64,000 nt of DNA from Malania oleifera (lineage: Eukaryota > Streptophyta > Magnoliopsida > Santalales > Ximeniaceae), in NCBI RefSeq assembly GCF_029873635.1, contig NC_080417.1, positions 27,557,682 to 27,621,681 on the forward strand, in the 5' to 3' direction. Made by a program: the position numbers and the translations under genes. Positions 4,124-56,257 of the stretch are shown here, piece after piece. The notes below the pieces were generated by a model that was not told the DNA's origin, did no database searches, and saw only the letters and a list, made by a program, of their open reading frames with translations. Each line of letters begins with the position of its first letter. The first letter of the stretch is position 1.

Positions 4124-6076
4124 TGTTGACTCAATGACTCAATGAGTTCGATCACATAACATCTTCAATACTCTAAGCTTTTGAAAAAAATTATTCATAG
4201 CATGCATGGTTGATAAGGATACAGTGGATGCCATAATGAATCAAATGCTCAAATCACAGGATGGCACTTGAAGAGTAAAAGGAATGAAGATCAAGTTTCT
4301 CACTGTGATTGCAATTAAATATTTGGTTCCGTAATAATTCAATTGGTCTGTAATAATTGTATTACATGCATGATAGGAATTAATGCTCAAAGGCCATAGA
4401 CTGACTTTAGGAACCCAAACACTTCATGAAAAATCCCTCAAGCTTAAATGCATTTCTTATACAAATAGGGTTAAAGCTTACTAGATCAAAGATAGGAAAC
4501 ACCTTAATTTTTCAAGAGCCTCAGTCGACCATTCACTTGGTGTTATAAATGCCTCAGTCGACCAAACAGTTAGGAAGTCAAATGTTTGACTTGGCTTGGC
4601 CGACCAAACACTGATTTGAACTAAACTTATATGGTCAACCGACACTTAAAATTGACTTTTTCTACCTTCCTTGCCTGACTAAACTTTTAGTTTGTAAACA
4701 CCTCAAGCGACCGAACCTTATGAAGGTTTGGAAAATCGCCTTTGCTCGGCCGAATGGCACTAGTCACAACCAACCGAACCCTTAAATTAAAATAAAAAAT
4801 CTATGTGTGTTCGATCAACCGATTGTATACCTCAGCTGATCGAACCTCTCAGGTTCAACCATTTTTAACCTTGTTAATCAGGGTTAATTTTTCAATTGAA
4901 CTTTTCCAAAATACGGGTCGTGTCCCTAATGGTAATATTTTTGGGAAAAACTATATATATACCCCTTCATTTCCCGGATTAGATTGAGACTAGCAATTTG
5001 ATTAATACAAAATCCTCTGAAAAATTCTTGAGCCTCACTTCTCTTACTCTTTCTCTTACAAACATACGATTGCTCCCATTCATATTCTCTTGTCAAAATC
5101 CTTTAAGAGAGCTTTGACTCTTAATCTCCACTTGCAAATTATTGCATTTGGTAAATTGATTGGCTGTTATTGTGAGCACTCACACTTGTTTTTAAAAACT
5201 CCTAACTCTCACATACTCTCTTGATTTTAATATCTTTTGAGAGTAAACCTCAAAGTTCTTCCCATTTTTTAATTGATACATATATTTTTCCTGGGAAAAA
5301 CTTTACATAGCTTGGTTGTTTTTGCATATTGGTTGCGGGACTCAAAGGCTTCATTTACGTTTATTGAAAAAGAATTTGTGGAAGCTAATCATCTTTGCTA
5401 CCTATATTTCTTTGTAAAAAATATTTGTGGTGGTTATTATATTTTTCTTTGACATCCTTGATATTTACTTGAAATACTTTATATTTTTTGAATCAAGGAT
5501 CCTTTTCAAAAGTACCTCTCACATTGTTTCATACAATATATTTGTTTGAGAGATAAAATACCAAATACTCTATTTATAATTCCTATCATACTATAAAGAG
5601 TAAAAGCACTTGTATTGGACATGAAATTTTTACTTATTGTTGTATTCCATGTGTGGCCTGAGGGGTTGTTGATCTACCTCATAAGGATCAGTTGTAAAGG
5701 TTGGGGTTAGCCCTGTGAATCTAACCTGGAGCATTCCCTCACTTAGTAAGGAGAGGGTGTTGTAACCGGTGTGGCTCGACTCGTAAGTGAGCATTAGTGG
5801 AATCCTTAGGCTTGCAAGCTAGAGGCGGTGACGTAGGCACAGTTGCTGAACCTCGATAACATATCAAGTGTCATTTTTATTTTATCTACTTTATATTCTT
5901 GTGCCTGCCTTATTAAATTTATCTAGAGCAAATTATTTATGGAATCATTTATCTGTTTATTTCATACTTGCTTTAGATAGACTCTAGGTTATGAAATACT
6001 GCTTGCTAGAATTTTGACCTAGAATTTTTTAAATCTCCAATTCACCCCCCCTCTTGGGATTACACTAAAAACAAAA
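4124..6076 (+). repeat. Element A 5' LTR
   Basis: Starts TGTTGACTC and matches the 3' LTR at 22584-24555 along its length; the first ~55 bp are the most diverged. A palindrome array (TCGACC-type motifs) lies at about 4518-4870. A TATA box (CTATATATATACCCC) follows at 4951-4965. A short C-run then CTCTTGGGA lies at about 6043-6060, close to the end. Between them are long non-coding sequences including CTTTTGAGAG-type words. Terminal bases read ACAAAA here and ACAATA in the other copy, so the expected final CA has decayed in both. Confidence 0.85.
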
Positions 6077-6078
6077 TT

Positions 6079-6090
6079 TGGTATCAGAGC
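6079..6090 (+). promoter_or_regulatory. Element A primer-binding site
   Basis: TGGTATCAGAGC, complementary to the 3' end of plant initiator methionine tRNA, the standard minus-strand primer site of Copia elements. It starts 2 bases after the LTR. Confidence 0.95.
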
Positions 6091-7806: not shown

Positions 7807-7812
7807 TATTCA

Positions 7813-12044: not shown

Positions 12045-13408
12045 TAATGATTTTCAACGATCACAAACTGAATATATTGTTTTTCAGAAAATATCCCTCA
12101 ATAAAATGTATATTTATAAATACCAAGGATATTTAATCAAGCATTAATATATCTAAAATATAGATCCTTTAACAAACACACACTAGAATCAAATATTTTC
12201 AACCAATGATAAAAACCTTTATTAAGTAGTGAGATTATCTAGATAATGTATATATAAAGTTTACTCACTCTCTATCACTCCGCATATTTTAACAATAGAT
12301 TTCTAAATGAGTAGTTCTTTGAAAAATATATATTTCAATGGCAAAGTAAACTTTCTCAAGGAATGAACTTGTCAAACAAAATCTCTATATGGTTAAGAAC
12401 ACTCAAGATCGAATTCTCTAAAGATATTCAATAACAAGTGATGAGATGAGAAGCTCTTGAAAATAATAACTTGAATCACCAAACCTCAATACCAAGATGA
12501 GATCAAAATGTATAAGTGAGATCCCATTTAGTTTTCAGAGTAGATTTGCCCAAGGAAGATGAATATAGATGGAATGCTGCAGGCAATCGTTTAGCAATAC
12601 GTTCAAATCTCTCAATTTTCCTTCACGAAGATGTTCTCTTTTCTTCACGTTGATCATGGCTACAATACTAGGGTTTAGATGATGTATATATAGGTGTTTT
12701 ACCCTTAGGATTGATCTCAACCGTTGGATCAAAGAGATAGTTCACGAGTTCTATTAATAAAAATTAGATTTTTAAGTTTTCCCGCAAGTTCAAGCTTCTA
12801 AAGTGGGGTCCAGGCTCCTAAAGTGGCGAGTTAAGGTGCCTGAAGTCCAAGTTTAGGTGACCGAAGTACCTCGGCCTGATTCTATGTTTCACCATTAAAT
12901 CTTCAGGTTACTGAACTTTATCTTTAGGCTCTTGAAGAAATTCTTCAAGAGAGTGAGGTTGAGTTCAGGCAACTGAAGTCCCCATTTTTTGAATTTTTCT
13001 TTTCTAATTTAAAATTCTGCTTTGCTCTCCTTCTTGGGTCTTTTATAAAACATATTTTCCATGATTTTAAAAGTATTTCTAAGTCCATGAAAGTCCCCTA
13101 GTGATGTTCATGAAATACATGAATCCTAAAGTCATTCTAAGTTATGTTGAACCTACAAAAATGTAAATGCATGAGTTCTAAGTACCTATTCCCAAGATGT
13201 TCTTGAACTTTACCGCTTGCATCTTGATTCTCATACTTTTTGAGTTCCATGGATCTTACCAAGATATGTATGCTTTGCTTTATGGCTTCCATGACTCGTT
13301 ATTCTTCTGTATATGCTTCATATAGTTCCTGTTCACAAACTCAATGCACAGATCAAATACCAAGTAATTTGTCATTATCAAAACTAGATTGGACTCGTAG
13401 TGTCAACA
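11369..13408 (-). repeat. Second B-family LTR embedded in the B 3' LTR
   Basis: Ends on the plus strand with GTGTCAACA at 13408, which is a complete LTR start on the minus strand, and is similar throughout to the 5' LTR of B. Its other end is truncated within the R/U5 side (joins near GAGCAACCCAC at about 11381). It sits exactly between the two pieces of the B 3' LTR. No 5-bp duplication is visible, so a truncated solo LTR or recombination are both possible. It includes an (AT)n run at 12000-12041 and a TATA-like site near 12685. Confidence 0.65.
11436..11613. repeat. 34-35 bp minisatellite, five units
   Basis: Units of the form CTGCTTACAAGAGGTACAA then CTTCCTCCTAAT repeat five times here. 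Only two units are found at the matching place at 11136-11210 and at 20282-20355. Confidence 0.85.
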
Positions 13409-13646: not shown

Positions 13647-14723
13647 TGAACTTCTAAGGATATCTAATTAAATAGTTTTGAAGTATCTAAAATATCAAGT
13701 CTTTAACTAAGAACACACATGAATGATAACTCTTTAATCAATGGCAAAAGAAAAACTTTCTTAAGTAATGAGCTTGTAAAAAAAAATTTCTATATGAATA
13801 TGAAAACTTAAGATTGATCTCTCCAATGATATTTCCCCTTTGATTTTCTGAGTTGATTTGCCCAAGCTTGATGAGTATGAGATAGAGTGTAGGCAATCAT
13901 ATAGCTATATGCTCAAGTTTCTCAATTCTCATTCAAAAGCAATGTTCTCTTCTCTTCTCTTTTGTTATTAGCTTACGTACTAGGGTTTAGATGATCAATA
14001 TATAGGTGTCTTACCCTTAGAATTAATCTTGACCGTTAGATCAAAAAATATCTCATGAGTTCTCTTATTAAAAATTATATTTTTCAGTTTTCCTGCAAGT
14101 TCAGATGACCGAAGTCAAAGGCCCTCACAACTAAAGTTTCTTAAAGCTTCAAAAAATCAACCTGGATAGAGGGTTAGACGACTGAAGATTGGGGTTCATA
14201 CGACTGAAGTGTTGGGTTCGTACAATTGAAGTCTGAGTTCAGTCTTCTGTGGTGCTTCTGCCAAGTTCTGTGTTTCAACATTAATTCTTTTGGTGACTGA
14301 ACTTAATCTTCGGTCTTCTAAAGAAATTCTTCAGACGACTAAGGTTAACTTCGGTCTTCTAAAATGGCAACTTCAGGCGACTGACCGCTGAGTTCAGTCG
14401 TATGTTCATGTAATGCATGAGTCATAATGTCATTCTAGTTTATGATTTGAGCCTCAAATTAAATCATATAAAAATGTAAATACATGAGTTCTATGTACCC
14501 ATTCCCATGACGCTCTTGAACTTCTTGCTTGCATCTTCATTCTTCTACTCTTTGAGTTCCATGAATCTTGCCAAGATATGTATGCTTTATTCTTTTATGG
14601 CTTCCATGACTTGTTATCCTTCCATGCATTCTTAATATAAGTCTTGTTCACAATCTCAATGCACAGATCAAATACCAAGTGATTTGTCATTATCAATACA
14701 AGATTAGACTTGTAGAGCCAACA
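13409..14723 (-). repeat. Element B 3' LTR, inner part
   Basis: Begins on the minus strand at 14723 with TGTTGGCTCTACAAG, directly after the purine tract. It aligns with 20515-22009 of the 5' LTR, about 180 bp shorter through internal deletions (for example near 13840 relative to 20878-20965). Palindrome-type words (TCAGGCGACTGA at 14373-14384) precede the TATA-like site near 13995 in minus-strand direction. An (AT)n run lies at 13610-13641. Confidence 0.8.
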
Positions 14724-19968: not shown

Positions 19969-22009
19969 TGTTAATTTAGGTGTAATCCCAAGAGGGGGGT
20001 GAATTGGGTATTTTAAAAATTCTTTGAAACTTATTCACTACTTAGTCCCTATGTCTAAATTTAACCAATTACTTATCAAGTTCGCGTGAGATTATTCAAC
20101 AAAAATACATACAATGTAAGTAATGAAGTGTGTTACGGAAATTAAAAAGATAAGAGAAGAGAGAATGCAAACACAGTTTTTACAAGGTTCAGCCAACCCG
20201 GCCAACATCATCGCCTTGAGCAACCCACTCAAGGATTCCACTATAATCCCTGCTCCTTAAATTGGGATGAAGCTTCCCTTACAATCTGCTGCTTACAAGA
20301 GGTATAACTTCCTCCTAATCTGCTACTTACAAGAGATATAGCTCTCTCCTCAAACCTGGTTCACAACCCAAACCGTGAATACAATCAAATCTGTAAAACA
20401 CTCAAAGTTGCTTCCAACAAAGCTAGTGAGTACAATTAAAATTCCTAATACATAATCATATGATGAAACTTGAAGCTCAGAATGAATGTAACGATATAAT
20501 CGTTATATAGATGAATATGCTTCCAACACACAATTTCCCCTTTTAATCAAATCTCCCAAAATGATGATATAAGTAAAATCTTTGGAGAGCTTAGGTTAAA
20601 TCTTTGAATACAAAAATAACTTTGAAGATTGCAAAGATTTGAAACACAATTTATCACAACAATATTTTTCTCAAGTTTTCAACCACAATATGATCTTTGT
20701 AATATGCAACTCAGTATATATATTTGAAGTATCCAAAATATAAAGTCTTTAACTAAGAACACACTTGAATTAACTCTTTAATCAATGGCAAAAGAAAAAC
20801 TTTCTCAAGTAATGAACTTGTCAAAAACAATTTCTATATGAATATGAAAACAAAAGATCGATCTCTCCAATGATATTCAATAATAGATGATGATATGAGA
20901 AACTCTTGAAAACACTAAATGGATTAACCAAACCTCAATACCAAGTTGAAATCAAGATGTATAAACAAATCCCCTTTGATTTTGTGAGTTGATTTGCCTA
21001 AGCTTGATAAGTATGAGCTAAAGTGCAAGCAATCGTATAGCTATATGCTCAAGTTTCTCAATTCTCTTTCAAAAGCAATGTTCTCTTCTCTTCTCTTTTG
21101 TTCTTAGCTTACGTACTAGGGTTTAGATGATCAATATATAGGTGTCTTACCCTTAGAATTAATCTTGACCGTTGGATCAAAAAATATCTCACGAGTTCTT
21201 TTATTAAAAATTATATTTTTAAGTTTTCCTACAAGTTTAGATGACTGAAGTCAAAGGCTCAAACAACTGAGGTTCCTTAAAGCTTCAAAAAATCAACCTG
21301 GACACAGGATTAGTCGACTAAAGATTGGGGTTCATATGACTGACGTTTCGGGATTAGACAACTGAAGTGTCGGGTTCAGACGACTAAAGTCTGAGTTTAG
21401 TCTTGTGAGGTGCTTCTACCAGGTTCTGTGTTTCACCATTAATTCTTCAAGCGACTGAACTTAATCTTCGTTCTTCTAAAGAAATTCTTCAGACGACTGA
21501 GGTTAACTTTGGTCTTCTGAAGTGGCAACTTCAGGCGACTAACCGCTGGGTTCGGTCATCTGAATTTCCTAAATCTTGAATTTTTTCTTTTCGGTTCAAA
21601 AATCTATTTTTCTTTCTTTCTTGGCTCTTTTATAAAAATAATTTCCAGGGTTTTAAATATATTTCTAAGTCTATGAATGTTCCCTAATGATGTTCATGAA
21701 TGCATGATTCCTAAGGTCATTCTAGTTTATGATTTGAGCCTCAAATTAAATCATATGAAAATGTAAATACATGAGTTCTAAGTACCCATTCCCATAACGC
21801 TCTTGAACTTCTTGCTTGCATCTTCATTTTTGTACTCTTTGAGTTCCAAGGATCTTGCCAAGATATGTATGCTTTATTCTTTATGACTTACATGACTTGT
21901 TATCCTTCCGTTCATGCTTAATATAGGTCTTGTTCACAATCTCAATGCACATATCAAATACCAAGTGATTTGTCATTATCAAAATAGGATTGGACTTGTA
22001 GAGTCAACA
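19969..22009 (-). repeat. Element B 5' LTR
   Basis: 2041 bp, TGTTGACTCTACAAG at the minus-strand start (22009) and a TTAACA end (19969). Contains the G/C-run motif (plus strand CCAAGAGGGGGGTGAATTGG) at 19990-20010, two minisatellite units at 20282-20355, degenerate palindromes at 21235-21560, and a TATA-like ATATATAG at about 21133-21140. Confidence 0.9.
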
Positions 22010-22583: not shown

Positions 22584-24555
22584 TGTTAACTCTATAAGTC
22601 TGATCCCGTTTTGATAATGACAAATCACATTGTATCATACCTGTGCTCTAAGCTTTTGAACAGAATTATTCATAGCATGTATACTTGATAAGGATACAAC
22701 GGATGCCATAAGGAATCAAATGCTCACATCACAGGATGGTACTTGAAGAGTAAAAGGAATGAAGACCAAGTTTCTCACTTGTAATTGCAATTAAATATTT
22801 GCGTGTGTAATAATTCAATTGGTCTGTAATAATTGCATTGCATGCATGATAAAAATTAATGGTCAAAGGCCATAGACTGACTTTAGGAACCCAAACACTT
22901 CATGAAAAATCCCTCAAGCTTAAATGCATTTCTTAGACAAATAGGGTCAAAGCTTACGCCTTAGTCAGCCATTCACTTGGCGTTATAAATGCCTCAGTCA
23001 ACCTAACAGTCAGGAAGTAAAATGTTTGACTTTGGTCAACCAATTGAACACCTTCTTGAACTAAACTTCCACGGTCGATCAACACTTAAAATTGACTTTT
23101 TCTACCTTCCCCGATTGACCAAACTTTTAGTTTAAATACACCTCAAGCGACCGAACCTATGAAAGTTTGGAAAATTGCCTTGGCTCGGCCTAGTGGCACT
23201 AGTCACAGCCAACCAAACCCTTAAATTAAAAGCAAAAATCTATGTGCGTTCGGTCGACCGATGGTATACCTCAGCCGACTGAAACACTCGGATTCGGCCA
23301 TTTTTAACTTTGTTAATCATGGTTATTTTTCCAATTAAACTTTTCCAAAATACGGGTCGTGTCCCTAAAGGTAATATTTTTGGAAAAAATTATATATACC
23401 CCCTCATTTCTCTGATTAGACTGAGATTAGCAATTTGATTAACACAAAATCCTCTGAAAAATTCTTCAGCTTCACTTCTCTTACTCATTCTCTTGCAAGC
23501 ATATAATTGCTCTCATTTATATTCTCTTGTCAAAATCCTTTGAGAGAGTTTTGATTCTTAATCTCCACTTCCAAATTATTGTATTTGGTAGATTGATTGG
23601 CTAGTATTGTGAGCACTCACACTTGTTTTTAAAAACTCATAACTCTCACATACTTATTCGATTTTAATATCTTTTGAGAGTAAACCTTAAAGTTCTTCCC
23701 ATTTTTTTATTGATACATATATTTTTCTTGGGAAAAACTTTACATAGCTTGGGTGTTTTTGCATATTGATTGCAGGACTCAAAGGTTTCATTTACATTTA
23801 TTGAAAAAATAAATTTTGGAAGCTAATCTTCATTGCTACCTATATTTCATTATTGAAAATATTTTTGGTAGATATTACATTGTGCTTTGACATCCTTGAT
23901 ATTTACTTGAAATACTTTATATTTTTTGAATCAAGGATCCTTTTCATAAGTATCTCTCACATTGTTTCATAGAATATATTTGTTTGAGAGATAAAATAAC
24001 AAATACTCTATTGAGTTATAATTCCTATCATACTAGAGTGCATAGATTGAATTGCTATACAAATTTTCTTAGTATTGAAGCACTTATATTGTACACAAAA
24101 TTTGTACTTGCTGTTGTATTCCAAGTGTGGCCTGAGGGGGTGTTGATCTAGCCCATAAGGATCGGTTGTAATGGTTGGGGTTAGCCCTGTGAATCTAACC
24201 TAGGGTATTCCCTCACCCAATAAGGAGAGGGTGTTGTAACCGAAGTCGCTCCACCCATAAGTGAGCATTAGTGGAATCCTCAGGCTTGCAAGCTAGAGGC
24301 GGGGACATAAGCACAGTTGCCAAACCTTGATAACATATCGGGTGTCATTTTTACTTTATCTTCTTTACATTCTTGTGCTTGCTTGATTAAATTTATCTGG
24401 AGCAAATTATTTGTTGCATCATCTATCTATTTATTTCATACTTGCTTTAGATAGACTCTATGTTGTGAAACACTGCTTGCGGGAATTTCGACCTAGAATT
24501 TTTAAAATCTCCAATTCACCCCCCCCCCCCTCTTGGGATTGCACTAAAAACAATA
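22584..24555 (+). repeat. Element A 3' LTR
   Basis: Starts TGTTAACTCTATAAG, similar to 4124-6076. Palindrome-type motifs at 22970-23300 (for example GGTCGACCGATGG near 23260), TATA-like TATATATACCCC at about 23390-23402, and a C-run then CTCTTGGGA at 24519-24539. Followed by GAACT, the right target duplication. Confidence 0.9.
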
Positions 24556-25517: not shown

Positions 25518-26112
25518 TGATGATTCGAATGCGCAACAGAAACACGCATAACTCAAATCTGGAACAAGTAATGCAAGAAACCTATAATGAATATACAAAA
25601 CAAGCAATCACGATGAGAATAAAGGAAAGTAATAAAATCAATGACACGAGAAATTACATGGTTCGGCAATGTGTCTATGTCAACGAGAACAAACGGTTGA
25701 TTTTCACTATCAAATTGTAAAGCTTACATCAAGGGTTACAAATATAGTCTATATATCTAACCGTATACGCACAAAAGACTTAGAATACATCTAAAACACT
25801 TCTGTAGAAAATCCCGAAAGAAAAACTTTCTAATCCCCCAATCTATTGATCTCCAAATTTAAAAATCTGTAACTTGTGCCGAACAAAATCGTCGAAGATT
25901 TCAGGCAAACCGTCGACGATTAAATAATGAGAGTTATTCCTACTGTAGACTGAAACCGTCGATGGTTTCGTTTGATACCAAGAGCAAACCATAGCTCATA
26001 CCATTGACCAAACAATCGACGGTTTGATCATGCAACTAGTTTCCTTGTTCTTTGCGTCACTATGCTTACCCGACATATACATTCCACACAAATATGAGCT
26101 ACATCTCCCACA
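25518..26112 (-). repeat. Tork LTR shared by elements Z and Z'
   Basis: 595 bp; minus-strand start TGTGGGAGATGTAGC at 26112, end ATCATCA at 25518. Left of it is a PBS and gag (it is the 5' LTR of Z). Right of it is a PPT-like stretch of the 3' end of another copy (it is the 3' LTR of Z'). Palindromes with CGTCGACG core lie at about 25890-26030, upstream in minus-strand direction of TATATAGA at about 25747-25757. Confidence 0.8.
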
Positions 26113-26167
26113 ATCTCCACTTTGGAGAATATTCACCACTTAGGGGAAATATGAAAGCAAAATCTTT
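26113..26167 (-). other. Z' 3' end with polypurine tract
   Basis: 55 bp reading, on the minus strand, TCTCCAAAGTGGAGAT just before the LTR: the PPT side of a Tork element. Its continuation is found at 47500 after the F/C nest. Confidence 0.65.
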
Positions 26168-26550: not shown

Positions 26551-27045
26551 TTCGGTCGACCGAAGGTTTTTGGCCTTAATTCAAAAGCTTCGACCATAGG
26601 GAACCAGACAATGACCATAGCTTACCTTAGGGGCAAAATTGGAATTTCACTTGCCTCGGTCGACCGAACATCACAAAGTCATTTGACCTTGGTCGACCGA
26701 ATTAAGAATTTGACCAAAGTCAAAGCTTCAGTCAACCAAACCCTAACATACAGAGCAACTTTAGTCGACCGAACCTCCTCAAGGTCAAAAGTTTGACCAT
26801 TTGGTCCACTGTCCTTAAAATGAATATCAACGCCCTGGTCAATCGAACTTGAAGTTGAAAAATGGCTTGGTCGACTGAACATCCAAATTCGGTCAACCAA
26901 ACTTAGGCTGATCGACCAAACATCGGAGGTTCAAAAATCACCTCAAGTCTAGTTGACTATCCCCCTCAGTTGAAAAACACCCTAGTCGACCAAACTGAGT
27001 AACTCGGTCGATTGAACCTTAAAAATGGTAGACCGAACCTCTTAA
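26551..27045. promoter_or_regulatory. Palindrome array in LTR F
   Basis: About a dozen degenerate copies of TTCGGTCGACCGAA spaced roughly 25-60 bp. A perfect 14-bp copy is at 26551-26564; TCGGTCGACCGA is at 26656-26667 and GGTCGACCGA at 26691-26700. Others read GGTCAACC, AGTCGACC, GGTCGACT. In the uninterrupted LTR the array would lie about 110 bp upstream of the TATA box. Confidence 0.8.
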
Positions 27046-27120
27046 GTTACTCAATTTTTACTGAGGATAAATTGGGTTATTTTTAATTAAAATTACTTAA
27101 TATTTTTCTAAAATACCCAA

Positions 27121-27536: not shown

Positions 27537-29514
27537 TAAAATTAAGAATAGGTTCCCAAAAGGGGGGGTGAATTGGCTTTTAAAATTTTCTTTTAATTCC
27601 TTTGTAGATTTTTTAAACTTATTTTTTTAATTTGTTAAGCACTCAAGAACTTAGTTTCTTTATTTAATCCTTAACCATACAAACATCCAATCATTCAATC
27701 AAACCAATCAATTATAATTAGAAAGCAAACAACCAAGCCAATACACAGCACTTATGTAATATAAAAACTCAAAATGATTGTTTGTTGATATTAGCTAAAT
27801 TTAAACCAAGCCCCATGAAAATTTATGCTTGCTGATGTAAAACCCTATATAAATAAATTTTGTACTTGCTGATATAAAGCCTTGTATTGATGGTTTTACT
27901 TCTTTAATATGATGTGCAATATAACATCCAATCAACACAATATCTACTTCTTCAATATTCAGAACTCAACTAAACTCTCAGTTAATTTATCCTTGGGCTG
28001 TTAACCAAGTAACGTACTCCTGTATGGTTTTCGCAAGATATAGTATAACCAATGTACTCCCTTTCGATTTCCGCAACCCAAATCGAAATTAATTTTTCAG
28101 TTTACTTGGTTTCTATATTACGTAGTATATATGATTATCAATTAAACCATCCACGCAATTTAAATATGCTGAAAATAAAGAGTAAGGGAAAGAGAGAGTG
28201 AGACGGGAATTTTTACGAGGTTTGGCTTATACCCAGCCTACGTCCTCACCTTTGGAAAACCACCAAAGGATTCACTAAACCTGTTCCGTTGACGGTTGGA
28301 ATAAAACCTTTAAAAGTGATATCCCATGCTCAAACACTCCTTCACTAGGATAGAGCCCGCCTCTCCAAACGATATTCCCTTATTTGGTCCAACGATTCTA
28401 CAATCCTGAATCGTCTATAAACAAGAACCAAGATAGAGAAGAGTTTGTGTACAAGAAAATATTCTCACAGTAGAGTAGGTTAGTACAACATTCAGTACAA
28501 TAATACTTCAAAGTAATTCAAATATAAAAGAATTTGAAGCTCAATACTTAATATAGATCACCAAATATCTTCCAAAATTTGAAAGATTCTGACTTTGAAA
28601 GCTTTACTTTGGAGTTTGAACCAGTAGCAATTCAATAGTTGAACACAAGAGAGTTTGAGAGCCTTTTTAAGAACTTTGATTGCTGAAAATTTCTTGGTGT
28701 CTCAAACCTTTGAAGTTTGGGGCTATTTATAGATGTTTGAAAGTAATTCATTTCCCCCAAAGTTTCCTTGAAGTAGTTTCCAAGTTTTTCAAAATAATGG
28801 TGTCCAAAAACTTCATTTAAAAAATCATCCCGTTGAGAGTTTTTAAACCAATGTTCGAGTGGCAGTCGCTTGTCATAGAACAAACTCATAACACAGAACA
28901 CTGGCAGTCGCCTGCTAAAACCAAGGCAGTCGCCTAGCATGACCACCCAGGCACCTGGCATGTTCAGGTAGTTGCATGTCTTGCTACTGTCTCTGAAAAA
29001 TCATTTACTTAATTTAGCAGTCGCCTGCCACAATAGGACAGTTGCCTGACCCTTCTTTTTTCAAAAACTTTTCTTTTTCAAAACCCTTTCTTTTCATTAA
29101 TTATAAAAGTATTCTTTAGAGTTTTCCCAAAAAATATATTTCTGAATTTCTTAAGAGCTTCAAAATAATTTATACTTGAAATTAACTTGAAGTACTTACA
29201 TTCAGAACATCCTTAAAAATTTAATTCTTTGATCTTCAATCTTATTCTTCCATCATATTTGAGTTTTCGATCTTTTCTTTAAGCTTTCACCATGTTATTT
29301 TAATCCTCATGCTCTTCAAGATCTCTTTTTAATCCATAAGTTTTATCATGCTCTTCAAGATTTATTTTTAATCCATAAGCTTTATCATCCTCTTGAGCAT
29401 TGTCGCTTCCTTTAAGCTTTGCCTTTTTCTTGAAAAACTTTCACTTGAACCACATTAAACATATCATGATTTGTTATCATCAAAATAAGAATTGTAAGCC
29501 TTATTAGGCCAACA
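27537..29514 (-). repeat. Element D 3' LTR
   Basis: Minus-strand start TGTTGGCCTAATAAGG at 29514. The terminal CA is mutated to TA at 27537. Contains the G-run motif near 27555-27575, a TATA box (minus CTATAAATAG, 28723-28732) and CAGTCGCCTG-type palindromes at about 28860-29050. Confidence 0.9.
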
Positions 29515-32580: not shown

Positions 32581-32623
32581 TTAGATCTTTTTATAGCTTC
32601 TAGTTAAGAGTTGCTATAACCCC

Positions 32624-32635: not shown

Positions 32636-32637
32636 AT

Positions 32638-34632
32638 TGAAATTAGGAATAGCTTCCCGAGAGGGGGGTGAATTGACTTTTAAAATTTTCTTTTAATTCC
32701 TTTGTAGAATTTTTAAACTTATTTGTTTAATTTGTTAAGCACTCAAGAACTTAGTTTCTTTATTTAATCCTTAACCATTCAAACATCCAATCATTCAATC
32801 AAACCAATCAACTATAATTAGAAAGCAAACAACCAAGCCAATACATAACACTTATGTAATATAAAAACTCAAAATGATTGTTCATTGATATTAGCCAAAT
32901 TTGAACCAAGCCTTGTAGTGAATGAAAATTTATGCTTACTGATGTAAAGCCCTGTATAAATAAATTTTGTACTTGCTGATATAAAGCCTTGTATTGATGG
33001 TTTTGCTTCTTTAATATGATGTGCAATATAACATCCAATCAACACAATATCTACTTCTTCAATATTCAGAATTCAACTAAACTCTCAGTTAATTTATCCT
33101 TGGGCTGTTAACCAAGTAACGTACTCCCGTATGGTTTCCGCAAGATATGGTATAACCAATGTATTCCCTTTTGATTTTCGCAACCCAAATCAAAATTAAA
33201 CTTTCAGTTTACTTGATTTCTCTATTACGTAGTATATATGATTATCAATTAAACCATCCACACAATTTAAATATGCTGAAAATAAAAAGTAAGGGAAAGA
33301 GGAGTGAGACGGGGATTTTTACGAGGTTCAGCTTATACCCAACCTACGTCCTCGCCTTTGGCAAACCACCAAAGGACTCACTAAACCTGTTCCATTGAAG
33401 GGTGGAACAAAACCTTTACAAGCGATACCCCATGCTCAAACACTCCTTCATTAGGCTAGAGTCCGCCTCTCCAAACGATATTCCCTCATTTGGTCCAATG
33501 ATTCTACAACTCTGAATCGTCTATAAACAAGAACCAAGATAGAGAAGAGTTTGTGTAGAAGAAAACACTCTCACAACAGAGTAGGTAGTACAACATTCAG
33601 CACAATGATACTTCAAAGTAATTCAAATATAAAAGAATTTGAAGCTCAATACTCAATATAGATCACCAAATATCTTCCAAAATTTGAAAGATTCTAACTT
33701 TGAAAGCTTTACTTCGGAGTTTGAACTAGTAGCAATTCAGTAGTTGAACAGAAGAGAGTTTGAAAGCCTTTTTAAGAACTTTGATTGCTGAAAATTTCTT
33801 GGTGTCTCAAACCTTTGAAGTTTGGGGCTATTTATAGATGTTTAAAAGTAATTCCTTTCCCCCAAAGTTTTCTTGAAGTAGTTTTCAAGTTTGTCAAAAT
33901 AATGGTGCCCAAAAACTTCATTTAAAAAATCTTCCCAGTGAGAGTTTTTAAGCCAACGTTCGCGTGGCAGTCGCCTGCCATGACTTGGTAGTCTCCTGTT
34001 ATAGAACAAACTCACAACACAGAATACTGGCAGTCGCCTACTAGAGCCAAGGCAGTCACTTGGCATGACCACCCAGGCACCTGGCATGTTCAGGCAGTCG
34101 TATGTCTTGCTACTGTCTTTGAGAAATCCTTTACTTAATTTGGCAGTTGCCTGCCACAATAGGATAGTCGCCTGGCCCTTCTGTTTTTCAAAAACTTTTC
34201 TTTTTCAAAACCCTTTCTTTTCATTGATTATAAAAGTATTCTTTAGAGAAATTCAAAAAATATATTTCTGAATTTCTTGAGAGCTTCAAATCAATTTATA
34301 CTTGAAATTAACTTTAAGTACTTACATTTAGAACATCCTTAAAAATTTAATCCTTTGATCTTCAATCTTGTTCTTCCATCATCTTTGAGTTTTCGATCTT
34401 CTCTTTGAGCTTTCACCATGTTATCTTTATTCCTCATGCTCTTCAAGATCTCTTTTTAATCCATAAGCTTTATCATGTTCTTCAAGATTTCTTTTTAATC
34501 CATAAGCTTTATCATCCTTTTGAGCGTTGTCACTTCCTTTAAGCTTTGCCTTTTTCCTGAAAAACTTTCACTTGAACCACATTAAACATATCATGATTTG
34601 TTATCATCAAAATAAGCCTTATGAAGCCAACA
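32638..34632 (-). repeat. Element D 5' LTR
   Basis: Minus-strand start TGTTGGCTTCATAAGG at 34632, end TTTCA at 32638. Perfect-arm palindrome GGCAGTCGCCTGCC at 33966-33979 with others to 34170. TATA box (minus CTATAAATAG) at 33828-33837. G-run motif at 32659-32675. Confidence 0.9.
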
Positions 34633-35215
34633 GAGCCGACTTCGGGCGACCAAACCAGGCAAGTCAAAATTGTCTCGGTTGATCGAACCATGGACCGATC
34701 AAAAAGTTGACCAAGATTCAGGCAACTGAACCCAAAAGGACTTCATCGTCCACGGTCAACCAAACTCATACCATATACTTTTCCATCCTCAACGAGCGCC
34801 TGAACTCTTAGTTCATTTTCACCTTGAGCGACCAAACTTAGAAGTTTGGCACACCGACCTCAGGACCGAGTGACTAAATCACGGTCTTTTAGAGAATTTC
34901 CTGGTTCAGCCACCTGATTATAAATTCGGGAACCCAAACATGAAAAACTCGCTTTTTCCATTGTGTCTATTCGGGCGACCAAACCTTGGGCTTGGTCGAC
35001 CGAAACTTCCGGGTTGCACAATTTTTACCGCAGGTAATTGCGGTTAATTAAGGGTAAATTGGTTTTAAAATTCATTAAACAAATTTAATAATACCCCTTG
35101 TGTCCTAATGGTTATATTTTTGTGTAAGGTCATATATATATGATCATTTGCAAAAATTAAGATAAGATTAGGGATTTAGATTAGGGAAATTTCCTCTGAA
35201 ATTTTGAAAGCTCTA
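34633..35215 (+). repeat. Element C 5' LTR, part 2
   Basis: Resumes after element D with GAGCC and matches 44684-45293 of the 3' LTR, including the GGGCGACC/GTCGACC palindrome array and the ATATATATATGATC TATA-like site at about 35133. Ends with CTCTA, the left duplication of solo LTR E. Confidence 0.9.
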
Positions 35216-37120
35216 TGTTAGCCTAATAAGGGTTTCACCTCTTGTTTTGATGATAACAAATGAAGAAAAGGTTAATGACATTATGTGTTCAAGTAATGAT
35301 GTTTTCAGGAATCTAAAAAAGCCAAACTCAACAAAGTTTCGAAAGATCACTATCAAGCTTAATGGTGTATGGTGTGGCAATAAGTGATCAAACCGGGAAG
35401 CACGAAAACATCTGAAGATGAAATAAACTTAAAGCTTCAAGATGATCATGAAGTTTCAAAGAACAAGAAATGTTCATATTGTTAGGAAATCTTCATGTAA
35501 GTACTTCAAAGTTAAAAATGTCATTATGAATGAAATGAAGCTCATTAGGGGATAAATATGGACTTAGAAACTTTATTTTAATACCCTGGAAAATGTTTTT
35601 CAAAAGTAAGAAAGCAACAAAACTGAATATCTTTGAAAAAGAAAGAAGGAAAGTTTTTTTATATTGTCCAGGTGACTGAAGATAATTCCTCAGGACACCG
35701 AAGATTTTATTGAAGCAAATAAACAAGACAGTGTACCTTCAGGCACCTGACCCTGTGTCTTCAGGCTCCTGAACATACCTCAGGCTACTGAGGTTGCACT
35801 TCAGGCAACCGAAGTACGACAACGGGCAGATTTTTTAAACTTCTCTTTTTCAAATCTAATTGACTTGCGCCTTAATATTTTTGGAAACTTTGGGGGCACT
35901 CCAGGTAAACTTGGGGAGCACAAATGAAAGTGTTTTTTAGGCCTATATATATATGGTTTATGAGAAACAAATCAACCAAGCATTGAAAATTCTTTCAAGA
36001 TATCTTTCACTCAAAGCCTCTTGCTATTTGGTTTAAAAGCTCTAAATTGCTACGAAAATTCTGAGAATCTCTAAGATTTTACAACTTCTATGAAGAATTT
36101 GATTTAAGTTATTGATCCTCATCAAAGAGAAGTAATCCGGTGATATTTACATAGAGTTTCTTACTTCATTCTTTTGATATTTTGAATTTGAAGTATATTA
36201 GCTTCTAAAGTGTACTAATCAGCTCTTTGTGTGAGCATTATTTGTACGCATCTATTTGAATTATTTCTTGTAGATTGACGATTCCAAGGGCTGTTTGGAT
36301 CATTGCCTAAGCAAGAGGATATTGCTTAGAGAGGCGGGCTCTAGCCTATGTAAGGAGTGACCGGACGAGAGGATATCGTTTGGAGAAGGCGGGCTCTAGC
36401 CTTACTCAAGGAGTGTTGTAAAGGTTTGTTCCAGCCGTTAAAGGAACAAGTTTAGTGAATCCTTTGGTGGTTTACCAAAGGCGAGGACGTAGGCTGGGTA
36501 TAAGCCGAACCTCATAAAAATCCCTATCTCACTCTCTCTTTCCCTTACTTTTTATGTTTAGTACATATTTAAATTGCGTGGATGGTTTAAATTGAAAATT
36601 ATGTATACTACGTATATTTGGGAATCAAGTAAACTTAAAGTTTTATTTTGATTTGGATTGTGGAAACCGAAAGGGAGTATGTTGGTTAAACCATATCTTA
36701 CGGAAACCATACGGGAGTATGTTACTTGGTTAAACATCCCAAAGATAAATTAACTAAGAGTTTATCTGAATTCTAAATATTTGGAAAGAGTGATTAGATT
36801 TTATATTGTACATCATATTGAAGAAGCAAATTCATTTATAGAGTGCTTTACATCAGCAAGCATAAATTTTCATTTACTACAGGGCTTGTGTAAAGACTCG
36901 AAAATTTAAAAAGATTAAAATAATTTAAAAAAATAATAAAATAATAAATAAATAAATAAAAGGAATGACGTGGGAAAAAGAAAAAAATAAAAAATAAATA
37001 AATTAAATTAAATTAAGATAAATAAAATAATTAAATAACTAGTTGTTAAATTAAATATTATTGTATTAGATTTAAAAAATAATAATAATAATTAAAATAA
37101 TATATATATATAAGTTAAAG

Positions 37121-37173
<53 letters not shown>

Positions 37174-41638: not shown

Positions 41639-42350
41639 GTAAAGGTGGCAAAGCACTTATTTAAGAACCCAAATCGTGATATATGGAATAAATTAAATAA
41701 GAGAAAGGTAAAATGGTAATTGAGTAGGCTTCGTCGACGAAACCAAAATTCATCGACGAAGGCCTTATGCTGCTCGGCGACGAAATGTAGGAGCTCGTAG
41801 ACAAGGAGAAGCCGAGAGGTTTTGGGAATCCAGAAATATTAGGCTCATCGATGAGGTCACCGCTTCATCGATGAACTGTCTTCAGTGACTTGTCAACGAA
41901 GACGCCATCTCGTTGATGAGGTTGGCCGAGTCAAAGGGCTATAAATATCCATTTGGGTTGCTTAACAACTAAGAAATCAAAAATTCTCTCTCTCTTTCTC
42001 TCTCTAAATTTCTTCACTGTACTGGAATCATAGATCCGACATTACCACGAGGATCAGGGAAGGATTCTCTTCAAGATTTGTGGAACGGATCTTAATTCCA
42101 AGTATTTCAGGTTTTGTCTCGAAATCGAGGTAAGGCTCGATTTTTAATTTTGTTTCGGTAGTTATGTAGGGCATAGAATTGTGAGAATGTTCTGTACTGT
42201 GATTTATAGGTTTTAGAAACTCGGTTCGTTGTTTAGGGACCATAGAGTTCACGATTGGTCATTTGGGGAAAGGTATGGGGATTCTGTTTATGTCGGTTAT
42301 TTTCGAAATCGAACTCGGTAGAACTTTAATTCATTTAAAGAAATACTCAT
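41639..42350 (+). repeat. Foreign LTR-like promoter fragment inside element C
   Basis: Sequence unlike the rest of C: palindromes TTCGTCGACGAA (41730-41741) and TTCATCGATGAA (41864-41875) plus several degenerate ones, then GCTATAAATATCC at about 41938-41950 and a CT-rich leader at 41987-42008. This resembles the 5' half of an LTR (U3 with TATA box, start of R). It occupies the place of pol. Right and left borders are approximate and no target duplication was found. Confidence 0.5.
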
Positions 42351-44270: not shown

Positions 44271-45178
44271 TGTTGACCCTATGGGTCACACCCTTGTTTT
44301 GATCATGACAAATACTTTAGTATTTAACGTTTTCCAAATTTGTGTGCAAGACCATATTAAGAAGATCATATTGATGGCACATGGCAACTTGAGGAAAATG
44401 AAGACCCGAAATGTTTTAAATTGTTGTAATCTATTTTTCATTTTGTTAGGTCTGTAATAATAATCATCCAAGGTTTGTAATAATCTGCATATCATGCATG
44501 TAGGACTATAAGTTCAAGACCTTAGAGAGACCTTAGGGATCACCCTTCGGTTGACCAACACCGGAGTTTTTCAGTAGGATAGAAAGACTTTAGGTCCCTA
44601 AACAAATGCACAAACAATGCCAATAACACATATAATATTAAGGGAATCAGTGGGCTTAAAATAGGACTTAAAAGGCTAAATGAATTGACTTCAGGAGACC
44701 AAACCAGGCAAGTCAAAATTGTCTCAGTCGACCAAACCGTGGATCGATCAAAAAGTTGACCAGGATTTGGGCGACCGAACCCAAAAGGACTTCACCATCC
44801 ACGGTCGATCGAACTCATACCATGTACTTTTCCACCATCCACAGGCGCCCGAACTCTTAATTCATTTTCACCTCGGGCGACCGAACTTGGAAGTTCAGCA
44901 AACCGACCTTAGGACCGGGCGACTAAATCGTGGTCTTTTGGAGAATCGCTTGGTTCAACCACCCGATTATAAATTTGGGCACCCAAACATGAAAAACTCG
45001 CGTTTTCCATTGTGTATGTTCGGGCGACCGAACATTGGGCTCAGTCAACCGAAACTCTCGGGTTGCACAGTTTTTATCGCGGGTAATTCTGATTAATTAA
45101 GGGTAAATTGGTTTTAAAATTCATTAAATAAATTTAATAATACCATTTGTGTCCTAGTGGTTATATTTTTTAGCAAGG

Positions 45179-48344: not shown

Positions 48345-48503
48345 CTCTGAAACTGTCGACGATTTGATACTGAAAACAAATCGTCGCTCATAGGTCGACC
48401 AAACAATCGACGATTTAATCTTACAACTAACTTTCTTGTTCTTTGCATTACTATGCTTCTCCTGTGCATGCGTTCCCCTAAAGTATGAGTCACATCTTCA
48501 ACA
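48345..48503 (-). repeat. Partial Tork LTR of Z'
   Basis: Matches 25950-26112 of the Tork LTR, including CTTTCTTGTTCTTTGC and the GTCGACGATTT palindromes. Minus-strand start TGTTGAAGATGTGACTC near 48503. Confidence 0.7.
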
Positions 48504-49330
48504 ATAAGTATATGTGTATATATTTTTAGTTTGCATGTAAAAAAAGGAAAAAAAAAAATCTTTTTCATTAATAATATAATTACACTGCACATGCTTACTC
48601 AAATTAGAAGTCGTATTCCCTCAACATAGGTTTCTTTATTATAGAGGTTAATGCACAAGGGCAGTTCGAAAATTGTCCGTGCCCGCTTGCCTCCTATGCC
48701 AAATTAATCTCACACTTATTATATACTTTTCGCGTAAAACCTATTATTATAAAATTTTTAGTAGATAGCCGATCTCAACATGATTCACAACTCATCCAAA
48801 AATATCATGCTCCTTCTCAATTTCTCTTTGATCGAAAAAAATTTCACTCAATTATTGTTTTTTTCTTTTTTTGAGTAAATTATTAATTTCCTGACTATAA
48901 TTATTAATTAGTCTGCCGGTGTCACGCCTAACACATTCCACAAAGTCCCAACGTGCTCTTGTGATTTTGGGCGCAGCGACATGCCAAGTTTTTGGCTAGC
49001 AGGCATCTTAAGATGATCCATAATTACCATTCAAATTAAATGTAATTAGAGCATAATTTTTAGCTCATTTATAGTTTGTTAATCTGCTTATCATTCTTTG
49101 GTGGCAGACGGCTACTGTGTGAATGTGGTATCATTCAAAGAAAGACGAAGAGGTCTGCAGTCTCCACCATGGTCTCGACTTCCATGATTTTTCTCCCTTG
49201 AGGGACCAGCGCCACCATCACCCCCAACCCAGACGCATAAATACATTAAATTTTTTTTTAAAAAAAAAAAAGAGCTTGTCATCTTTACGACCTAGCTGAC
49301 GGTTACACTTTGCGAAATCCAAAATCTCCA
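48504..49330. other. Intergenic DNA upstream of the ELO-like gene
   Basis: Low-copy-looking sequence with no recognised repeat or gene. An A/T-run pair (T9 then A13) lies at 49249-49272. It probably holds the upstream promoter of the gene at 49458. Confidence 0.5.
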
Positions 49331-49440: not shown

Positions 49441-49457
49441 GAAAAGAAAAGGACAAT

Positions 49458-52552: not shown

Positions 52553-53980
52553 TTATATCATTTTGAACAGCTCCATGACTTTGTCGAAATGAGTGTTACT
52601 ACAGAAAATCAACGTATCATCTGCAAAAGGAAGGTGAGATAATGTGGTTGATTGAGACGAATTATGAAGACAGACTCCCTTCAAAAGATCATTATCCAAG
52701 CCTCTGTGAATCATCTGTGAAAGGGCTTCTACGACAACAACAAAAATAAAATGGGACAATGGATCGCCTTGTCTTAAACCCCTTGTGTTCTTAAAGAAGT
52801 CGGTAGCCCTACCATTGACCAAAATAGAGAAAGAGGTCGTTGAGATGCACCAATCTCTCCGGTTTCGCCATTTTCTCCTAAACCCATAATTCTAAGGATG
52901 TTGATGAGGCATTTCCAGTTGACATGGTTAAAGGCCTTATCCAAATCAAGCTTGCACACAAAGCTTTTGATCTTGTTTTTCCGCAGGAAATCTACTTCCT
53001 CATTTACAATCAAATATAGATCAAGAATTTGTCTTCCTTCAACAAAGACCATTTGTTGCTTTGAAATGAGCAAGGGTATGACTTCTTGGATTCTGTTAGA
53101 GAGAACCTTTGCTAGTATTTTATTAAAAAAAAAAAAAAAAAAACCTATAAGACTTATTAGCCTGAAGACCTTGATGTTCTCAGCTTCGCCCTTCTTGGGA
53201 TGGTGCCAATGAATGTGGCATTTAGGCTTTTTTCAAATCTTTCTTTACTATGAAATTCCTTGAAAGCATTAATGAAATCTTCCTTTAACAATCTCCAATA
53301 TTTCTGAATAAAAACAAATGGTGAACCCATCTAGAACATGCAATTTGTCCCGGTCTAACGATGAGACGACTCTCCAAATCTTGTTTTATGAAAATTGCTC
53401 TCGAGATCTTTGTCTTGTCTACTTGATAAGGATGCAATCCCATCCTATTTTAGTCTAGGCCTCCACCCACATGGTTTTTGAAGAATGTCATGGAAGTATT
53501 TTGTGATCTCGAAGTTTATTTAGCTGACCTTGGTCTTCCTTTCTATTCCAATAGTCCACCTCTAATATACCTGAAACCTTAAGCTGTGATTCAGATGTCA
53601 TATACTCTCTGCTTCATTTTTTCAAGTGATCCTTCATGGTCTTTAATTTTTTTGCCAATACATACGATGTTATGCCGCTAAAGTTCATGTCCTCCGACCA
53701 ATCCTCCATTTTTCTCTATAATTGATCTATCATTAACTAGCTATTGTAAAATCTGAAAGAAGCTCTTCCCCATTTCATATCGCCGCAATCCATTATGATA
53801 GGATATGGTTCGAGATACAATAGGTCAATGCCATTTGACTAGTCTGTGGGTAGTTATCCAGCCAGTCCAAAGTAAGTAAGAATCTTTCTAGCCTAGACAT
53901 TATGAGAATATCCTGATTATTGGCCCAGGTGAATTCCGGCTTGCTAAGCGGTAAGTCGATCAGTTCCCATTTGGATATAA
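52553..53980 (-). pseudogene. LINE reverse transcriptase remnant
   Basis: Minus-strand pieces: KQQMVFVEGRQILDLYLIVNEEVDF then KSFVCKLDLDKAFNHVNW with the first catalytic Asp (52850-53073), GLRQGDPLSHFIF (near 52770), and the palm FADDTLIF with FADD at 52616-52627. Region 53100-53980 continues the RT start and the endonuclease-RT linker with many stops. A T-run at 53128-53150 (A-run on the other strand) interrupts it. Confidence 0.85.
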
Positions 53981-53984
53981 AGGT

Positions 53985-56257
53985 TGTTAGAATTTGTGTA
54001 TTCTCAAGAGGAGGGTGAATTGAAATTTTAAAATTTATCTCCTAGGTTAAATGAAATACTTGTATAATACAACCTAGGGTCTTTCTATGCAGTTCCAAAT
54101 GCGCCAATAATATAACGTGTGAAAATTTAAATCAAGTGCATCATTCACACCATAACATACATGTGCGGTAAATATAAAGTGCAAAAATATAAACAAGGCA
54201 CACAATATGTTATCAGGGTTCGCCTAACTATGCCTACGTCTTCACCTCTAGTTCGTAAGCCCAAGGATTCCACTAAAGGTCCACTTAAGGGTGGAGCGGC
54301 AAAGATTACAACCAGGTCAATTAGCACAAGGCTGACCTCAACCTTTACAACCAAGTCAATTAGAGGGGCTGACCTCAACCTACACCTTAATAGGATAGTG
54401 CACCTAACTTTCTTAACCGGGTCTAAGTCAATCCGAGACTATTCCAAAGGGCTAGTCTCCCTCTTCAGGCCCGTTCCTGGAAATACAGCAGTATGTTCAC
54501 AATCAGTGAAATTGTACAATGATTATGCTTTCATGTAAAGCAGATGTATACCCAATTACGTGCAATCACATACACCACCAAGAGATATAATAAGTAAGCT
54601 CAGTGTGGTCTAATATTTCAACTCTCAAATAAATTTGTTATCGATGTAATAAGTGTGTGAGAGTGCAAACCAGTATGATCTTTGTATCACAATATGTATT
54701 CGATCTAAAAGCTCACACAAAGATATCTATCAACTCTCAAATATCTCAATCTTCTAAATATCTCAATCATATAAATCTTAAGCAGCATATAGATTTGGTT
54801 TGCAAAAGGAAATTTAATCTTTGTATTCAGAAAGAGATAAGGCTTAATGAATATTGCCACAAAGATTTTGACTCACAAACAAATATCACTTCAAATATTT
54901 TTCAAGATAAAATATAATAGATATTTGTAAATGATTTTAAAAAGATTTTGCAACCAAAATAAAATACGAGCTTCTCAAGATGTTGCAATGAATATACAAT
55001 CTTAGAAGATCGCACGAGATCTTCTTAGGCAAGACTTATTAATGAAGTCTCCTAAGAATACTCAAGGTTTTGCTCTCAAGAAAATGGAATCAATCAATCA
55101 AGCCAAGGAGAGCAAACCTTTCCAAAATAATCACTCAATCAACTTATAGAGAGTTTAGACGATAGTAGAAGGTAACTATGAGTGAAAGTGGAGTGAAAAA
55201 ATGAGTAGTAGAAGTTTAGAGCTTGAGAAAGAGTTTCTTAATCAAGTTGGTTAATCTCCTTACTAATTTTCCCAAATGAAGGGGTATATATAGACTCCCC
55301 TAGAATTATAACCATTAGGGACAAGGTTGGGATTATTAGAAAAAATTTAATAACATTTAGTTATTTTAACACTGTTTAAAAAATAGTTAACCACGATAAA
55401 AATGCAGGGCAACCCGAGAGCACCAATCGACTAGGATAGGTTTGGTCGACCGAAGTTCTTGAGGCTCGGTTGACCGAGCCAAAAATGAACTTTAGGTTCC
55501 GTCGACCGGACAAGTATGTCTGAGGAGATTTTTCCTATTTTGCGAGGTTTGGTCGACCAGGGTCATTTTGATCTAAGCCTGTCGGTCGACCAAACCGTTG
55601 AATTCCCACACATGGGAACTTGGTCAATTAGGTTAGTGGTATACAAATTTCTCACGATCGACCAGGAAGTCAAAATGTTGACTTCAAGGAGGTTCGGTCG
55701 ACTGAGGTCAAATGAGCTTCAGAAGCTCGATCGATCGGACTGTGGTCAACTGGTTAACCTAGACCGGGTTTGGTCGACTAGAGGCAAAATGACCTGTATA
55801 GGTCGGTTGATCGAAGGTGCACATTTTGTGCAATTCAATCTTGTTTTATTCAAAAATCACCATATTTCAAATAATCAAACATGTGTATGTATGAGTGAGT
55901 GTTATAGGGGCATTTCTATGTTTTTTTGAAAAATACTAAAAAAATCCTGCATCGGTCGACCGAAGGTCAACTGAAGGATAATCCCTAAGGTCTTTTTAAG
56001 ATCATTTTAATTTTGAGCTTACCTATCGTATCATGCAGGTGATACATGCAATTATTACAATCAAAGCCTTATTTACTATTACAAACTCTTTGCATAAATG
56101 AAATACATTACAACACATCTATTGGGACTTCAACTTCAATCTCTTCTTTGTGCCATTATTATGATCTGTCAATTTAAACCTGCATATGAACTAGATAGCC
56201 ATTAAATGGCTGAGTATTTGTCATAATCAAAACAGGGTATGACCCATAAGGTCAACA
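53985..56257 (-). mobile_element. Sirevirus-like solo LTR H
   Basis: 2273 bp, minus-strand start TGTTGACCTTATGGGTC at 56257, end CTAACA at 53985; same family as the element C LTRs. Imperfect target duplication AAGGT (53980-53984) and AAAGT (56258-56262). Palindrome array at about 55440-55970 (GGTCGACCGAAG at 55444-55455), TATA box (minus TATATATACCCC) near 55282-55292, G/C-run motif near 54009-54022. No internal domain is present. Confidence 0.85.

Follow-up and report, generated by a model that had tools for sequence, protein, structure and literature searches.

Paired inverted half-sites before the TATA box in Sirevirus, other copia and Ty3/gypsy long terminal repeats of Malania oleifera

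The window analysed here is a 64-kb stretch of the Malania oleifera genome (assembly GCF_029873635.1, contig NC_080417.1, positions 27,557,682 to 27,621,681 of the forward strand), and by self-comparison, Sirevirus signatures and Pfam matches it is a nest of long terminal repeat (LTR) retrotransposons. Arrays of palindromic units are present in its Sirevirus LTRs, in the LTR of a non-Sirevirus copia family and in that of a Ty3/gypsy family, and in this one genome the three kinds of LTR have in common the symmetry of the units, their multiplicity, a preferred 4-bp gap between half-sites and a place ahead of the TATA box. Palindromic promoter arrays were described as a speciality of Sireviruses; a similar architecture is now found in other copia elements and, in great numbers, in Ty3/gypsy elements. 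The best explanation, which the sequences make moderately probable, is that these would be U3 enhancer arrays bound by a dimeric host DNA-binding factor.

Inverted half-sites around a 4-bp centre

The Sirevirus LTRs of the window are A, B, C, E, F, the two copies of D, K and H, I, an older fragment of family S2, and S4. E and B are the 5' and 3' LTRs of one element, and K (5') and H (3') are likewise read as a single element. Membership of families S1 to S4 among the Sireviruses is indicated by a polyC integrase signal near the LTR end in 10 of these 12 LTRs; the signal was not seen for B or for the older S2 copy, the LTR ends of both being undelimited. The arrays, with window coordinates and strand, are as follows.

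4553..4844, +: array of Sirevirus LTR A (S1, TTCGG-4-CCGAA), in the LTR fragment 4171-6077, with units, primer-binding site (PBS) and polyC signal; TATA 108 bp on
12789..12977, -: array of the older Sirevirus LTR fragment (S2, TTCAG-4-CTGAA); TATA 97 bp on
14100..14406, -: array of Sirevirus LTR B (S2; 3' LTR of E/B); TATA 96 bp on
21236..21564, -: array of Sirevirus LTR E (S2; 5' LTR of E/B); TATA 96 bp on
22993..23283, +: array of Sirevirus LTR C (S1); TATA 108 bp on
25886..26025, -: array of four units in the non-Sirevirus copia (Tork-like) LTR 25518-26112; TATA 131 bp on
26551..27037, +: array of Sirevirus LTR F (S1); TATA about 119 bp on, by coordinate arithmetic
28861..29050, -: array of the 3' copy of Sirevirus LTR D (S3, GGCAG-4-CTGCC); TATA 130 bp on
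33966..34176, -: array of the 5' copy of Sirevirus LTR D (S3); TATA 130 bp on
34641..35004, +: array of Sirevirus LTR K (S1), which is split by nested D and S4; TATA 129 bp on
35667..35813, +: array of the solo Sirevirus LTR S4 (TTCAG-4-CTGAA, variable spacer); TATA about 130 bp on
41662..42331, +: Ty3/gypsy LTR fragment with an eight-unit array at 41729-41921 and TATA at 41940
44690..45053, +: array of Sirevirus LTR H (S1, many GCGA spacers), with an extra unit at 44546-44559; TATA 127 bp on
48350..48416, -: two units in a Tork-like LTR remnant (48347-48505)
55441..55815, -: array of Sirevirus LTR I (S1), with an extra unit at 55951-55964; TATA 149 bp on

An earlier, sequence-only reading of the window had quoted five palindromes, all of which were found exactly where it placed them; the S4 array is absent from it. 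It had also held that the arms differ between families while a TCGA core is kept. Such a core is indeed present in A, C, F and I, in the Tork-like LTR and in the gypsy fragment, and H and K mix TCGA with GCGA, but B and E, D and S4 carry other centres, and TCGA was rejected as the common core. In S1, arms TTCGG and CCGAA enclose mostly TCGA and sometimes GCGA; S2 has the arms TTCAG and CTGAA; S3, the family of D, has GGCAG and CTGCC around GCGA; and S4 combines TTCAG and CTGAA with a variable GNNN. What the families share is a pair of half-sites, inverted and 4 bp apart, whose arms are specific to the family: the geometry comes closer to constancy than the core does. When half-site pairs are counted by gap, with units beyond 4-5 mismatches and the K1, K2 and B rows dropped, and with other gaps and orientations as the control, inverted pairs peak at a 4-bp gap in S1 (18, against 0.86 per gap in shuffles), S2 (15 against 1.35), S4 (7 against 0.38) and S3 (5 against 0.09), the peak being sharp in S1, S2 and S4.

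The distance from the end of the array to the first TATAWA is characteristic of the family: 108 bp in A and C, 96-97 bp in B, E and the older S2 copy, 130 bp in D and S4, 127-129 bp in H and K, 149 bp in I, 131 bp in the Tork-like LTR and 19 bp in the gypsy fragment. The earlier placement of the arrays 50-150 bp before TATA therefore holds for 12 of 13 LTRs, at 96-149 bp, and fails for the fragment.

Enrichment depends on how well an array is preserved. An LTR-blind scan for CG-core 12-mers with no more than one of their 6 pairs broken returned 54 sites in the 64 kb, and every 400-bp interval with at least three of them overlies the Tork-like, F, fragment, H or I array, with one exception (49601-50050, 64% GC, within an ELO-like gene). 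A, B, C, D, E, K, S4 and the older S2 copy have arrays that hold 0-2 such sites each and fall below this density. Against dinucleotide shuffles of each U3 stretch, the same 12-mers were in excess (p<=0.05) in Tork, F, D3, D5, H, the fragment and I, 7 of 14 stretches, whereas A, B, C, E, K1, K2 and Tork2 missed that level; these last are visible only through their family half-sites. The expected excess over shuffles is thus borne out for half of the stretches, and the outcome is mixed because several arrays are degenerate.

Spacing between units is also particular to the family. The steps are 19, 24, 21, 50, 20, 25 and 20 bp in the gypsy fragment, 52, 46 and 21 bp in several Tork-like copies, and 33, 39 and 33 bp in F; the D arrays run 21, 49, 42, 22, 42 and 21 bp, and S4, measured from unit starts, 22, 49, 22, 19 and 21 bp. 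The S3 and S4 arrays are probably homologous in spite of their differing arms, because their layouts start alike (21-22 and 49 bp) and one stretch towards the LTR end is about 80% alike; identity over the whole U3 is only 47%.

Genome copies of the Tork-like, F and Ty3/gypsy families

The LTR at 25518-26112 shows no polyC integrase signal at up to two mismatches. Copia gag remnants at 24562-25233 adjoin it and place it with copia; in Pfam they match zf-CCHC above the cut-off and Retrotran_gag_2 (E 0.0017) and Pol_BBD below theirs, and one of the three gag pieces is without a match. The Tork lineage, to which the earlier reading also assigned it, is our assumption. A search of the genome (1.49 Gb, 510 contigs) gave 40 matches, with 40 of 1,446 candidates scored, from which ten short copies among the 39 outside the window were read together with the window's own. 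All 11 have three or four units at similar places, each agreeing with at least 10 of the 14 letters of AACCGTCGACGGTT, and in a count by gap, made without shuffles, 28 pairs stand at gap 4 and no other gap exceeds 3. A TATA lies 136-140 bp from the last unit's centre in ten copies, and in the other (L069) none was found. CG-core palindromes number 21 in the 11 copies, compared with 2.9 in shuffles, and at least one is present in 10 of them. Arrays in a non-Sirevirus copia family are new within the literature searched.

In the F family, where 30 of 40 matches were read, the arrays hold 77 CG-core palindromes against 11.6 in shuffles; the flanks hold 6 against 5.2 and 14 against 6.9, the last count equalling the shuffle maximum.

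The stretch 41639-42350 had been taken for a further LTR type. Its array is real, and its identity is corrected here: homology among the family's copies covers 41662-42331, and on sequence grounds this is a Ty3/gypsy LTR. The search with 41639-42160 gave 41 matches (40 of 6,929 candidates scored), of which 30 copies were read, the window's included. Coding sequence before the LTR matches Integrase_H2C2 in one copy (L043) and SH3_Tf2-1 in three (L052, L060 and L033; E 1e-24 or better), and two of the six coding pieces beside these LTRs had no match. We take both domains to be marks of Ty3/gypsy elements, and presumably the family belongs to the chromovirus/Tekay lineage. Since integrase coding of gypsy kind precedes the LTRs of this family, the arrays occur in Ty3/gypsy elements too.

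Across the 30 copies, units stand at about -203, -184, -160, -139, -89, -69, -44 and -24 from TATA, and at these fixed offsets a score of 9 of 12 or better is reached in 239 of 240 unit slots, compared with about 4% in shuffles. CG-core palindromes number 115 before TATA against 14.8 expected, and none occurs in the roughly 140 bp after it, where 3.4 were expected. Exact CTCG and TTCG pairs at gap 4 number 31 and 33, the next-highest gap having 11 (raw counts, without shuffles). A contrast between copia LTRs with arrays and gypsy LTRs without them had been proposed. The LTR-like stretches 1-1602 and 36891-39411 do lack a cluster, but the contrast fails, because eight units precede TATA in 30 Ty3/gypsy copies; the sharing of arrays by unrelated families, for its part, proves wider than had been claimed. 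A common origin of the fragment and 1-1602 was considered and rejected (z 2.2, from a CT-rich match).

Counts of exact words in the genome bear on abundance and placement. The word CTCGTCGACGAG occurs 29,470 times, its reversal (the same letters, palindromic, with no CpG) 36 times, and an ACGT-core palindrome of the same composition with three CpGs 7 times; TTCGGTCGACCGAA has 3,249 copies against 1 for its comparison word. With CTCGTCGACGAG placed 5-30 bp upstream of TATAAATA, there are 6,369 matches (3,216 + 3,153), and for the reversed pattern none. Among 100 listed places the gaps, which the search limited to 30 bp, are 8-10 bp (11), 18-21 bp (22) and 28-30 bp (67), with none between; at these places the three classes are separated by roughly one helical turn. 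The listed sequences show several promoter contexts, and the pair therefore seems to be carried by more than one LTR type. Since all such counts carry element copy number, they establish abundance and placement rather than selection. A 12-mer site with 29,470 copies is exact enough for an affinity pull-down, and the natural differences between arms offer a test of specificity.

A proposed dimeric host factor and the alternatives

On the proposal favoured here, an array would consist of mostly 3 to 12 dyad-symmetric sites, each a half-site of 4-5 bp, a 4-bp centre and the inverted half-site, set at a family-fixed distance before TATA. Each unit would be bound by a homodimer (or by paired monomers) of a host DNA-binding protein, which would aid the start of transcription of the element. 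Differences between arms would mean that the families use different members or specificities of a factor family, and duplication and turnover inside the LTR would keep an array uniform. Of the two functions suggested earlier, a binding site for a dimeric factor and an RNA-silencing-related hairpin, the former is the better supported, by the 4-bp gap, the fixed placement and arms that do not covary.

If the units worked as RNA hairpins, each would form a 5-bp stem and a 4-nt loop in the U3 transcript that could feed or block small-RNA silencing or serve packaging or 3'-end formation, a proposal we consider rather improbable. A loop of 4 nt would suit a hairpin as well, folding is stronger than in shuffles for most of the 12 arrays (z -0.7 to -7.1, both strands), and small RNAs of maize accumulate on the palindromes of Sireviruses, as far as the available passages describe (PMC10760457). 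The D arrays, however, hardly fold better than shuffles (z -0.7 to -1.4), and the two arms of a unit pair no better than randomly dealt halves in S1 (154/245 against 156.3), S2 (105/150 against 106.0), S3 (44/65 against 45.3), the fragment (33/48 against 31.1, p 0.24) or the Tork-like LTR (31/42 against 31.3). In the F family pairing is lower than random (584/980 against 618, z -3.5), to which the threshold for units contributes, and the gypsy family shows none above random when each position of the array is taken by itself (z -1.5). In the sense transcript, G-U wobbles are fewer than A-C mismatches in six of seven sets, Tork being the exception, although on antisense RNA those mismatches would be wobbles. 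Placement, moreover, follows TATA, a feature of DNA. Independence of the arms within units, together with placement tied to TATA, favours docking of a dimeric factor over selected RNA hairpins. On the side of hairpins, the GCGA spacers of H (44766-45032) and D (33966-34176), set between G-C closed arms, would once transcribed presumably form tetraloops of GNRA type.

Several points weigh against the dimeric-factor proposal. Across array positions, gypsy arms do pair more than random re-matching gives (z 3.6 over all arms, 7.3 for pair 1-12), which also speaks for hairpins; this is weak evidence, with eight positions and a pair 1-12 pattern that chance gives in about 10 of 56 cases. Many differences between units look like decay after insertion (transitions), and the covariation test is therefore of low power for the time when the elements were active. 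The half-sites behind the Sirevirus, Tork and gypsy gap counts were chosen from the tested data, so those counts are partly circular, and in S3, which comprises two LTRs of one element, gap 0 (4 pairs) nearly equals gap 4 (5 pairs). Nor is helical phasing a general rule, and it was rejected as such. S2, S3, S4 and gypsy repeatedly have steps of about two turns (19-25 bp), as has Tork in one step, and 10.5-bp phasing gives C 0.63-0.80 in S2 and S3; it is clear in S2, but a 7-bp period fits the D arrays of S3 better (0.92-0.93), S1 is weaker (0.33-0.47), being dominated by 33/39-bp steps shared by descent, and Tork plus fragment is not significant (p 0.26-0.30). For these tests K1 was dropped in one, and adjacent spacings above 120-130 bp were dropped.

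The arrays might instead go back to one short promoter module that passed from family to family through recombination or gene conversion, a form of descent under which factor binding could still apply; we regard this as possible but unlikely. GTCGAC is common to the TCGA-core families, and F aligns with the gypsy fragment over about 85 bp across the units (Smith-Waterman score 46, the highest of 40 shuffles reaching 44). A gypsy LTR motif of einkorn that is also present in a copia LTR, with conversion proposed, offers a precedent in the available passages of that paper (PMC11302176). The match of F to the fragment is weak, because 2 other of 12 targets without such arrays likewise exceed the shuffled maximum (56 against 55 and 57 against 55). 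The fragment and the Tork-like LTR, furthermore, show no similarity (z -0.6), and array layouts and TATA distances differ by family.

A third possibility is that the arrays act as CpG islands, through methylation or chromatin and not as sequence-specific sites. Observed/expected CpG is raised in 10 of 12 arrays (0.74-1.74, against 0.50 for the window), and the CpG-island point was made by Bousios 2010 in the passages available (PMC2829016), but both D arrays carry units without being rich in CpG (0.43), and the three-CpG palindrome of equal composition is 4,200 times rarer than CTCGTCGACGAG. That rarity implies that the exact word matters, at least by descent, and we give the CpG account little credence. 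An equally slight probability attaches to the absence of any function, the arrays being tandem duplications of palindromic seeds carried by successful elements. Layout is shared by descent within lineages (K, H and I; B and the older S2 copy), the 33/39 alternation of S1 suggests a 72-bp tandem, and the huge genome counts reflect element copy number. Tandem duplication is harder to reconcile with the likeness in geometry ahead of TATA among Sirevirus, Tork-like and gypsy LTRs, with units that stay upstream of TATA in the gypsy copies, and with linkers between units spaced 20-22 bp apart (9, 21 and 5 linkers) that are less alike (0.36-0.47) than the units (0.63-0.74), a unit likeness inflated by the picking of units for similarity.

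More tentatively, this plant's major copia and gypsy elements might have their common promoter key in a single host factor, or a single family of dimeric factors, that reads sites centred on GTCGAC, a doubtful extension of the dimeric-factor proposal. Were it true, families would have independently acquired arrays at stereotyped places before TATA, and tens of thousands of copies would spread, or soak up, the factor's sites genome-wide. The similar architecture of the three kinds of LTR makes a testable case of unrelated retrotransposons depending on a shared kind of host factor.

Published motifs and the setting of the arrays

As the sequence-only reading noted, palindromes have been in print for Sireviruses since 2010, with the same motif core as here. 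In the available passages of Bousios 2010 (PMC2829016), the Sirevirus repeated motif (RM) is palindromic, multi-copy and dyad-symmetric, lies in the upper LTR half, a short way ahead of a conserved TATA, reads CGGTCGACCG in Vitis, has a CGG-CCG signature in 12 of 13 published RMs, and is called Sirevirus-specific and absent from classic copia elements. The Sirevirus arrays of the window are likewise palindromic multi-copy motifs before TATA; CGGTCGACCG is the core of the S1 arrays, and the CGG-CCG signature is present in S1 and not in S2, S3 or S4. The arrays described here differ in occurring also in non-Sirevirus copia and Ty3/gypsy elements, and no common 4-bp gap is stated for the RMs in those passages, several published ones having other gaps.

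In maize, according to the available passages, palindrome clusters of the Sirevirus LTR cis-region are small-RNA hotspots (PMC10760457, PMC5311732); they resemble the present arrays as clusters in that region and differ by motif (CACCGGAC..GTCCGGTG). Maize Ty3 elements are there generally without an obvious peak of such structure (PMC10760457). The gypsy family of Malania, in contrast, has an array. Tnt1, a Tork-type element, has symmetric or repeated U3 boxes linked to transcription. Its likeness to the present arrays is one of description; box I of its U3 is named symmetric in the passages available (PMC2829016). Cereba and Quinta of einkorn have a promoter-adjacent LTR motif common to a gypsy and a copia family, which is 162 bp long and nucleosome-linked, and for which those passages propose conversion and describe no palindrome array (PMC11302176). 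In the titles, abstracts and passages of open-licence papers searched, there was no report of such arrays outside Sireviruses and no plant LTR report with the exact array words, and GTCGAC combined with DAP-seq (DNA affinity purification sequencing) yielded no usable factor name. Within that literature, the Sirevirus part of the present findings is known; what is new is that arrays of similar geometry also occur in other copia and in gypsy LTRs.

The elements of the window are nested in one another. Between 26160 and 47499, K/H lies in the F LTR (26160-27120, resuming near 46385 beyond K/H), and D (27539-34616) and S4 (35216-39722) lie in the K LTR; S4, a solo Sirevirus LTR, is itself interrupted by the solo-LTR-like stretch 36891-39411, the innermost step, and LTRs have thus been repeated targets of insertion. 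The polyC integrase signal is exact at 6040, 19994, 24514, 27563, 32663 and 40790, has one mismatch at 39679, 46346 and 54010 and two at 47464, and further matches at 1-2 mismatches fall outside LTRs. A PBS of the TATCAGAGC type occurs at 6079 (no mismatch), at 32624 and 40836 (one) and at 19955 (two). The polypurine tract AGGGGGAG followed by AT-TG is perfect at 14722(-), has one mismatch at 29513(-) and two at 22574(+), other LTR starts being unmatched at up to two mismatches.

The LTR-like stretch 1-1602 (-) begins TGTAACGACCCC, is without a palindrome cluster and abuts a truncated copia pol at 1623-4164. At 48278-48505 a Tork-like LTR remnant adjoins, with an odd junction, copia coding sequence (47727-48281) that has no Pfam match and that we take to be RNase-H-like. 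The open reading frame (ORF) at 49443-50375 (+) matches an ELO (GNS1/SUR4) fatty-acid elongase; its GC content is 58%, compared with 34% for the window, and it is the sole host-gene-like ORF among those scanned.

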